Source: Alphaproteobacteria bacterium (GTDB taxonomy: Bacteria > Pseudomonadota > Alphaproteobacteria > UBA828). Taken from it: a stretch of DNA of 42,982 bases. Position 1 is the stretch's first letter, and each line of letters starts with the position of its first letter. The position numbers and the translations under genes were made by a program. This document shows positions 35,295 to 37,944 of the stretch, piece after piece. The notes beneath the pieces were generated by a model that worked only from the letters and a program-made list of their open reading frames with translations, made no database searches and was not told the DNA's origin. The DNA lies in the NCBI GenBank assembly GCA_016869195.1, contig VGET01000004.1:1-42982 (forward strand). Direction: 5' to 3'.

Positions 35295-35978
35295 TCAGGC
35301 GTTCGAATCACCGTCCGCGCCGGCAGCGCTATCGTTGGCTGGCGCATCCACGCCACCGACGTCCGAACCAGCCGCCGTCGCCCCCGCCTCATCCGGCTTC
35401 GGGGTCGCGGCCTTGCGCGGCCGGTTCGCACCTTTCTCAGCACGCTGCGCGGCCCGCTCCTCGCGCCGACGCGCGATGTTGATCTGCTCGAGCAGCTCGG
35501 CCTCGCTGCACAGCCCGAGCAACACCGGATCCTGCGGCGAGATGTTGGCGGCGTTCCAATGCGTGCGGCCACGCACCTGGGCGATCGTCGCGGGCGTCGT
35601 GCCAAGCAGTCGCGCGACTTGCGAATCGCTCAGCACCGGATAGTTGCGAATCAGCCAGGCGATCGCGTTCGGGCGCTCATGGCGCTTGCTGACCGGGGTG
35701 TAGCGGCCGCGCCTTGGCTTCGTCACCGTCTCCGCCACGCTGCCGGCGATCTTGAGCCGCGCTGCGGGGTCGCCCTCGCAGCGCGCGATCTCTTCCGTCG
35801 ACAATTGGCCGGTCGACACGGGATCGAGCCCGCGTATGCCAACCGCCACCTCGCCATCGGCGATGCCCTGCACCTCGAGCGGGTGCAGCCCGGTGAAGCC
35901 CGCTATCTGCTCGAAGCTAAGCGCGGTGTTTTCGACCAGCCATACGGCGGTCGCCTTCGGCATCAGCGGCTGGGCCAT
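35295..35978 (-). CDS. trcR: Cell-cycle transcriptional regulator TrcR (DUF1013)
   Basis: The DUF1013 family protein is annotated as the cell-cycle regulator TrcR in alphaproteobacteria (recalled). The 227-aa product has the highly conserved start MPKATAVWLVENTALSFEQI, then GFTGLHPLEVQGIADGEVA, RPNAIAWLIRNYPVLSDSQV with a helix-turn-helix-like LLGTTPATIAQVR, HWNAANISPQDPVLLGLCSE, and a charged, disordered Ala/Pro/Asp-rich tail of about 60 residues. The ATG at 35978 is preferred because GGAGAA lies 9 nt upstream; a TTG at 35993 belongs to that ribosome site. It has a good promoter. Confidence 0.9.
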   Translation of the reverse strand: MAQPLMPKATAVWLVENTALSFEQIAGFTGLHPLEVQGIADGEVAVGIRGLDPVSTGQLSTEEIARCEGDPAARLKIAGSVAETVTKPRRGRYTPVSKRHERPNAIAWLIRNYPVLSDSQVARLLGTTPATIAQVRGRTHWNAANISPQDPVLLGLCSEAELLEQINIARRREERAAQRAEKGANRPRKAATPKPDEAGATAAGSDVGGVDAPANDSAAGADGDSNA

Positions 35979-36071
35979 CGATTCATTCTCCAAAGCACGC
36001 GGCGGCGCGGCCTACCGTCGGACCCGACGGCACCCGCCACCGCCATGTCCAAAGGTGTGGTGAGTGTGCAA

Positions 36072-37116: not shown

Positions 37117-37188
37117 GGCTCGGGTCCGGCTTGTTGCGGTTGGCGGCGGCGGCGGTAGTCTTTAGCAGAGCCGATCATGGAGGGCATC

Positions 37189-37371
37189 ATGGACGACGAT
37201 GAGGCACGGCCACCCCTGCCCGACTGGCCGCCGAAATCGATCGATCACCTCTCGCTCGAGGCGCTGCAGGCCTATCGGCGGGCGCTGGACGCCGAGATCG
37301 CCCGGGTCGAGCGCACGATCGAGTCGCGCGGCCGGCACCGCTCAGCCGCCGACGCATTGTTCAAGCGTTAG
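37189..37371 (+). CDS. DUF1192 family small protein
   Basis: The 60-aa protein is of the DUF1192 family: an acidic Pro-rich start (EARPPLPDWPPKSIDHLS) then one amphipathic helix, LQAYRRALDAEIARVERTIE. No function is known to me. The ATG at 37189 has GGAGG five bases upstream and is preferred over the in-frame ATG at 37177, which overlaps that ribosome site. Confidence 0.85.
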   Translation: MDDDEARPPLPDWPPKSIDHLSLEALQAYRRALDAEIARVERTIESRGRHRSAADALFKR

Positions 37372-37434
37372 CAAAAAGGGCGGAAGGGTCGCCGGCATTA
37401 ACGAATTCTTAGAGCTTTCGGCCTAGGGTGGGCC

Positions 37435-37463
37435 TTGCCGATATATCGATACCCCGATCTATC
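37435..37463 (+). promoter_or_regulatory. Predicted promoter of the small RNA
   Basis: TTGCCG (37435-37440) and TCTATC (37458-37463) are separated by 17 nt, giving a start near 37470. The spacer includes ATATATCGAT, A/T-rich for this genome. Confidence 0.5.
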
Positions 37464-37469
37464 GTGCAT

Positions 37470-37538
37470 TTTGTCCTCCCTGATTATTCCGTCTCCCTGT
37501 AACCCGCGCCGCCGGTCCTCCGGCGGCGCTTTTGTTTT
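37470..37538 (+). ncRNA. Probable small RNA, alpha-r14/suhB (MmgR)-like
   Basis: A roughly 70-nt transcript is predicted between a promoter and an intrinsic terminator, with no open frame. It carries two C/U-rich boxes, TCCTCCCTG (near 37474) and TCTCCCTG (37492-37499), which can pair with Shine-Dalgarno sequences. It ends with a perfect 10-bp hairpin and a T-tract. These traits and the length are those I recall for the alphaproteobacterial alpha-r14/suhB family (S. meliloti MmgR is about 77 nt), a set of Hfq-dependent riboregulators. Assignment to that family is by recall and should be tested with the Rfam model; that it is a small RNA is the safer call. Confidence 0.58.
37506..37538 (+). 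terminator. Intrinsic terminator of the small RNA
   Basis: A perfect stem GCGCCGCCGG (37506-37515) with CCGGCGGCGC (37520-37529) closes a TCCT loop and is followed directly by TTTTGTTTT. It is 135 nt after the DUF1192 stop, so it fits the small RNA better than that gene. Confidence 0.85.
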
Positions 37539-37601
37539 CGGCGCGTGAAATCCGCGCGCGCCTGCGTGTCGCAGGGTGCCGGGGCGAACCGGTTAAACCC
37601 C

Positions 37602-37665: not shown

Positions 37666-37944
37666 ATGGTCAGAAAATCCTTCGTCGTCCGGTCTCTCAT
37701 CCTGGCGTTGCCACTGGCGATTGCGGCCGGCTGCACGCAGCCGCAGACCGACTCGTCCAAGGTCGACGCAGCGGCCCAGCAATCGGCCGAGTCCAAGCAG
37801 ATGGCGATGGACGCCATGGCCAAGGCCCAGGAGGCGGCTGATGCGGCCAATCGAGCGGCGGCGGCGGCTGAGCAGGCCGCGGCGGACGCCCAGGCGGCGT
37901 CCGACAAGGCCGATCGGATGATGCAGAAGTCGATGCACAAATAG
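37666..37944 (+). CDS. Alanine-zipper lipoprotein (Lpp-like)
   Basis: The 92-aa lipoprotein has a signal peptide with lipobox AAGC (Cys at residue 23) and, after TQPQTDSSKVDAAAQQ, a heptad-like helix with Ala at most core positions, such as AADAANRAAAAAEQAAADAQ. This resembles trimeric alanine-zipper Lpp-type proteins that tie the outer membrane to peptidoglycan. It ends MMQKSMHK, with a C-terminal Lys as in Braun's lipoprotein, and the next gene is an L,D-transpeptidase, which could attach it to peptidoglycan. The pairing with the enzyme is an inference from position. Confidence 0.85.
   Translation: MVRKSFVVRSLILALPLAIAAGCTQPQTDSSKVDAAAQQSAESKQMAMDAMAKAQEAADAANRAAAAAEQAAADAQAASDKADRMMQKSMHK

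Follow-up and report, generated by a model that had tools for sequence, protein, structure and literature searches.

The question raised by the spacer downstream of the DUF1192 gene in the window, that is, the whole stretch of 42,982 nucleotides of alphaproteobacterial DNA analyzed here, is whether it carries a small-RNA gene of its own and, if so, to which family the RNA belongs and how it might act. The original prediction placed in this spacer a small-RNA unit that was described as complete, with boxes resembling anti-Shine-Dalgarno sequences, and assigned it to the alpha-r14/suhB (MmgR) family. The unit and its boxes are supported by covariance models of the family and of the class, hairpin covariation, a conserved promoter and synteny; the family assignment is not. 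We consider it likely that the window holds an independent gene for a small RNA acting in trans, and that this RNA is a homologue of the DUF1192-linked one listed in Rfam as BjrC1505.

Results

Elements of the locus and its promoter

The DUF1192 gene, the conserved upstream neighbour, occupies positions 37177-37371 of the forward strand (Pfam PF06698, E 7.8e-16), and the spacer that follows it carries, on the same strand, the two CU-rich boxes, the perfect 10-bp hairpin and the T tract that had been described. Box 1, TCCTCCCTG (37474-37482), is predicted from the fold to be single-stranded, and box 2, TCTCCCTG (37492-37499), is the counterpart of a class-wide CCTCCCTG box. The Rho-independent terminator, recognized from sequence, fold and covariation, consists of a hairpin of 10 G-C pairs with the loop TCCT (37506-37529) and the T tract TTTTGTTTT (37530-37538). 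A loosely defined terminator is by itself not rare (1 found vs 0.7 expected); the fold of the 73 nt at 37466-37538 beats all 200 shuffles, with a z of -4.57. What did not hold in the earlier description was the promoter, the start and the length of the transcript.

The promoter first proposed, TTGCCG-N17-TCTATC, was rejected. It agrees with 7 of 12 consensus bases, no sigma-70-type site was detected by a scan that required 9 or more of the 12, and its two hexamers (37435-37440 and 37458-37463) lie mostly inside the two arms of a 5' stem-loop, SL1 (37436-37468, forward strand; supported by fold and covariation), where compensatory changes are seen; the transcript therefore most likely starts near 37436, and not near 37470 with a length of about 70 nt as had been suggested. 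A different arrangement is found further upstream on the forward strand. The box TTAACGAATTCTTAG (37398-37412), identified by sequence comparison across loci, has the form TTAA-N7-TTAG and thus one mismatch to TTAA-N7-TTAA, which we take to be the CtrA consensus and for which we call the box CtrA-like; it stands 11 nt before the -10 element TAGGGT (TANNNT; 37424-37429), and box and -10 element together place the start near 37436. The RNA predicted from this start and from the covariance models R1 and R2 described below is about 100 nt long (37436-37538, forward strand), its 5' end being set by the -10 element to within a few nucleotides.

This arrangement was evaluated in 36 DUF1192-linked loci picked by eye for a CTCCCTG box and a terminator, from which the near-duplicates L009, L040, L051, L071, L086 and L197 and the variant-box loci L090, L102, L125, L131, L140, L146, L155, L168 and L190 had been left out. 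TTAA-N7-TTAA with at most one mismatch lies 5' of the RNA in 33 of the 36 (13 perfect), as against 15% of dinucleotide shuffles (1.4% perfect), and TANNNT follows it after 11 nt in 26 loci and after 12 nt in four. The combined unit of box and -10 element is thus present in 30/36 loci, compared with 85 of 7200 shuffles (1.2%) and none of 105 DUF1192 loci in which the RNA box is missing. Among seven members of the window's family, the box has a mean pairwise identity of 79% and the spacer between box and -10 element one of 34%. As judged from these alignments, the RNA has its own promoter architecture, TTAA-N7-TTAA/G and then TANNNT 11-12 nt on, a layout of the kind expected where an activator sits over the -35 region of the promoter.

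Other genes of the neighbourhood were recorded as well. Two genes upstream of DUF1192, on the reverse strand, lies a gene for TrcR (35295-35993; PF06242, E 4.8e-56), a transcriptional cell cycle regulator according to its Pfam annotation, a neighbourhood that fits a cell-cycle theme for the small RNA. On the 3' side, the RNA is followed by a gene for an alanine-zipper outer-membrane lipoprotein (37666-37944, forward strand; PF11839) and then by genes for a YkuD L,D-transpeptidase and a DUF1465 protein.

Structure and distribution of the RNA

In the seven-member alignment of the family (A2), 5 of the 11 pairs of SL1 are changed on both sides, with 87% of cells paired, and the terminator hairpin has two such pairs and 97% of cells paired. 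Both helices together reach a covariation score of 0.361, compared with 0.161 in shuffles, none of 500 of which attains the observed value, and with at most 0.170 in slid controls. We regard this covariation as support for SL1 rather than as proof, because seven related sequences are few. The sequence of SL1 is itself variable (60% mean pairwise identity); the best conserved part of the RNA is the stretch of 26 nt that comprises both boxes (37474-37499), with 88% mean pairwise identity in the family, so that the boxes are indeed conserved in relatives. On average, its bases are predicted to be unpaired with a probability of 0.87 in the window and of 0.55-0.87 across the seven members. A structured hairpin that is free in sequence, next to a fixed open stretch, is the pattern that would be expected of a base-pairing RNA.

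The covariance model R1 was built from 26 sequences of the class (alignment A1), none of them from the window's family; these had been chosen for CTCCCTG, with L107, L147 and L160 left out, and the invariance of CCTCCCTG in all 26 has to be read with this selection in mind. R1 has a sole match in the 42,982 bases of the window (37432-37538, 29.1 bits, E 1.1e-6), and the same RNA is its best match across the whole genome (E 8.3e-5). At E <= 0.1, R1 finds matches in 218 of the 289 class genomes, a figure that was not used as a prevalence because many of the weak matches cover just the box and the terminator. The second model, R2, was built from seven members of the window's family and finds matches in 10 of 21 family genomes, three of them outside the training set (G018, E 6e-24; G012, E 4e-19; G016, E 7e-11); DUF1192 adjoins nine of the ten loci. 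The copy in G016 looks decayed, its boxes being altered and its terminator weaker. The R2 unit was not found in the other 11 family genomes, which are eight of genus g5, two of g4 and G002 (67% complete).

Some individual copies deserve a separate description. In G012 (L438 / L015, G012:C223) the body of the RNA is intact, the apparent end of a transposase gene replaces the TTAA box, and no DUF1192 was seen within the stretch examined. G229 has three strong R1 copies (G229:C10:19-130, 221-329 and G229:C15:27-137), of which two follow each other in tandem where a contig ends. The window's own genome contains two more units of CCTCCCTG plus terminator, L002 (G000:C27:10657-10731:-) and L004 (G000:C67:600-703:+), one of which has a CTCCC box within the loop of a hairpin; they are possible sister small RNAs. 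In family f41, the units behind DUF1192 (L140, L146 and L155) are variants: the first of their boxes, CCCCTCCCTT, may lie in a hairpin loop, and the other, CTCCCCC, stands 5' of the terminator. Judging from these variants, forms with two boxes may have had more than one origin.

Family identity and gene neighbourhood

At Rfam gathering thresholds, the whole window of 42,982 bases yielded no match. A permissive scan of the spacer placed BjrC1505 (RF02356; 29.9 bits, E 4.8e-4, 37391-37536; gathering cut-off 50) ahead, by E-value, of suhB/MmgR (RF00519; 25.7 bits over the full model, E 0.002, 37466-37544; cut-off 41), and listed no match to ar14 or ar15 at E <= 10. The BjrC1505 alignment is full-length (model 1-140), with the CUCCCUG-type box directly 5' of the terminator. 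In relatives of the family, BjrC1505 scores 19.7-28.8 bits in five and has no listed match in two. By the E-value of the permissive scan and by the common gene neighbour, BjrC1505 is the closest Rfam family to the window's RNA. The kind of RNA is already known, and the window holds a divergent variant of it that scores below the Rfam cut-off.

A search of the class with BjrC1505 gave matches in 71 of 289 genomes at E <= 0.1, and in 18 of the 30 loci listed (L039-L068) DUF1192 lies within about 1.5 kb. A DNA pattern derived from the core of BjrC1505-type RNAs retrieved at least 120 loci from named genomes, including many of Bradyrhizobium together with Rhodopseudomonas, Afipia, Devosia, Stappia, Sneathiella, Bosea, Labrys and Hyphomicrobium; the set is rich in Bradyrhizobium and does not therefore represent 120 independent cases. 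Among the matches listed, DUF1192 precedes the motif on the same strand in 106 of 120, at a distance of 84-672 nt save for three exceptions (960, 1684 and 2938 nt); it is on the other strand in one of 120, and none was seen in 13 of 120, some of which are at a locus end. These 106 loci lead us to regard the Bradyrhizobium form of the RNA as DUF1192-linked and the window's RNA as its predicted counterpart. In the class sample of 289 genomes, 157 have DUF1192, and the strict unit was counted in 34 of these; predicted homologues of the RNA sit behind DUF1192 in distant Alphaproteobacteria.

Candidate regulator and targets

From the sequence of its box, CtrA would be the natural candidate regulator of the RNA. 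Outside the family, a CtrA match of 66-85% identity is present in 19 of 21 genomes bearing the small RNA (one partial, one short fragment). Within the family, CtrA was matched in two of the nine sRNA-bearing genomes tested (G003 and G010), and seven of the nine, the window's own included, gave no full-length CtrA match at 60% identity or more. In the window's genome (G000) the best CtrA match has 37% identity, below this limit; ChpT was found, and the assembly is probably misjoined in cheA by chpT. Neither CtrA nor ChpT was found in G133 and G229, though both have a perfect box, so that something else may read the box there.

The missing ctrA of the window's genome may reflect either a loss or an assembly gap. 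In G000, cheA lies next to chpT; the contigs of G001 and G007 end in cheA, and those of G012 and G018 end near chpT. With ctrA about 6 kb from chpT in G030, G209 and G022, the ctrA of the window's genome could fall in an assembly gap. On the other hand, in G010, of the window's family, ctrA stands directly beside chpT, where G000 has cheA, which speaks for loss or relocation. With ChpT present and contigs breaking or being misjoined at cheA, the missing ctrA was not taken as a proven loss.

Two further observations concern this cheA region. In G000:C9 (L442, about 10,400) the reading frame of CheA passes into one resembling FliF on the opposite strand, a junction that is probably an assembly misjoin. 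The CheA kinases of G001 (L443:2-2608), G007 (L444:4648-6009) and G000 (L442:9762-10634) contain truncated-globin domains (PF01152; two stretches in that of G001, total E 2e-28) among their Hpt, kinase and CheW parts, which suggests a chemotaxis kinase with its own putative haem sensor.

With regard to possible targets, the window's genome has 74 sites of the form CAGGGAG-N4-10-ATG. In three genomes, at a spacing of 6, the base before AGGGAG is C in 26 cases vs A, G or T in 55, so that C is mildly over-represented. The predicted targets were compared with a control consisting of the other three letters at this position, since a reversed-pattern control would have been too easy given that AGGGAG is itself a ribosome-binding motif. 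For 30 loci on each side, of which 25 and 26 had a frame of at least 60 codons and were scanned, no functional theme was seen in the 25 CAGGGAG candidate genes compared with the 26 control genes; the result of this test is negative.

Discussion

The comparisons described above show, at the level of sequence, a unit that is conserved in its putative promoter, its covarying 5' hairpin, its strongly conserved open stretch and its terminator. We propose that an OmpR-type activator, CtrA in most lineages, would bind the box and that transcription would run from about 37436 to a 3' end at the T tract. The 5' hairpin might protect or present the RNA. Through its two CUCCC boxes, the RNA would base-pair with AGGGAG in the Shine-Dalgarno region of several mRNAs and so keep ribosomes from binding, by analogy with NfeR1 of Sinorhizobium, which is reported to silence ntrB through CU-rich motifs that pair where translation starts (PMC10746234).

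Several alternatives have to be weighed against this proposal. One is that the hairpin is just the terminator of DUF1192, or the RNA a fragment cut from the 3' end of its transcript, with no separate promoter. In the window, no other terminator-like site precedes the hairpin in the roughly 135 nt that separate it from the DUF1192 stop; yet the promoter unit accompanies the RNA and is absent from the DUF1192 loci that lack the RNA box, and L017, L063, L072, L101, L109, L112 and L143 have an intact unit as far as 0.95-1.8 kb downstream of DUF1192, which makes this explanation quite unlikely. It is also hardly credible that the locus encodes a small protein. A TTG frame of 37 codons does span the region (37435-37548), so that the original view of a transcript without a frame was nearly, not strictly, right; however, all six relatives have indels of 1 and 2 nt within the body, the substitutions are explained by hairpin covariation, and the frame continues through the terminator.

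The two other alternatives accept a small RNA and differ on its kinship or its action. Membership in suhB/MmgR (ar8) or ar14 (NfeR1) was rejected and seems to us improbable. The unit is short, with CUCCC boxes and a terminator, its suhB match is full-length, and by bits alone suhB surpasses BjrC1505 in several family relatives, the best score being 35.1 bits, in G003; nevertheless, suhB remains below 41 in all eight family loci, ar14 is unmatched, and of the 20 syntenic loci of the class, 8 reach the cut-off of BjrC1505 and none that of suhB. The architecture also differs, as the window has a single hairpin plus terminator and its sequence contains no CCUCCUCCC, whereas ar14, which is NfeR1, is described in the available part of its report (PMC10746234) as three hairpins with this anti-Shine-Dalgarno motif in each. 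Moreover, the partial sources treat as two separate families what had been taken as one, since MmgR is the ar8 RNA and has partial homology to SuhB (PMC7143759). Finally, instead of blocking mRNAs, the RNA could mainly bind a protein or act as a decoy that captures a CU-binding protein or another RNA through its CUCCC stretch. The target tests, which show no specific regulon, are in line with this, as is the frequent association of CcsR-like alphaproteobacterial RNAs with a small DUF1127 RNA-binding protein mentioned in the accessible part of PMC10253847; but no DUF1127 gene is present among the six neighbouring proteins examined, and the conserved stretch is complementary to AGGGAG ribosome-binding sites, as in the action reported for NfeR1 in the part of the source available. 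We hold this last reading to be unlikely, and return to an RNA that would act on mRNAs.

If such an RNA were under the proposed control, it would be tempting to speculate that it forms an ancient, class-wide branch of the alphaproteobacterial cell-cycle circuit, in which a CtrA-type activator drives an anti-Shine-Dalgarno RNA behind DUF1192 across distant orders and pulses of the activator become bursts of translational repression, with another regulator acting on the same box in lineages devoid of CtrA (G133, G229 and perhaps the window's). We advance this as a tentative possibility, which we would rather doubt than assert. In the literature searched, which did not cover its original description, BjrC1505 is named in a table of a single paper only, and no mention of DUF1192 together with a small RNA was found. 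BjrC1505 is a bare small-RNA family in Rfam, and the present comparison supplies it with a constant gene neighbour, a conserved promoter of the activator type and a divergent branch whose scores, lying below the cut-off, cause it to be overlooked in standard annotation. It also makes testable, in Bradyrhizobium or Rhodopseudomonas, whether the RNA is under CtrA control and which translation starts it blocks.

Small RNAs with some of these properties are described in other species. In Caulobacter crescentus, CcnA is a small RNA with a CtrA box close 5' of its start (at -23; PMC8959179, in its available part). The same partial source gives it a length of 182 nt, a location in the replication origin and an action on ctrA and gcrA, with a DUF1192 link unmentioned there, and CcnA was set aside as an identity for the window's RNA. 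GspR of Sinorhizobium lies between SMc03844 and SMc03845, and its family is characterized in the partial report by complete microsynteny and a predominant restriction to Sinorhizobium/Ensifer, for which reason a locus common to GspR and the window's RNA is unlikely. The suhB/MmgR RNAs share with the window's RNA the short length, a CUCCCU box and the terminator; in contrast, MmgR has 77 nt and its anti-Shine-Dalgarno motif in the first loop, as far as its partial source goes, while the window's RNA has a 5' hairpin without a CUCC box and a predicted length of about 100 nt. NfeR1 (ar14) and AbcR1/2 (ar15) of Sinorhizobium resemble it in their unpaired CU-rich anti-Shine-Dalgarno boxes, through which, in the accessible parts of the reports, a block of the translation start is presumed. 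The closest likeness is with BjrC1505 of Bradyrhizobium and other Alphaproteobacteria, which has the same position behind DUF1192, the same promoter geometry, a CUCCCUG box just 5' of a G+C-rich terminator and a full-length alignment, and differs in that the window's RNA scores below the cut-off and has GUCUCCCUG as box 2 where BjrC1505 has GCCUCCCUG. In many members of the class, a second hairpin occupies the position of box 1, where the window's family carries an extra single-stranded CCUCCCUG box.
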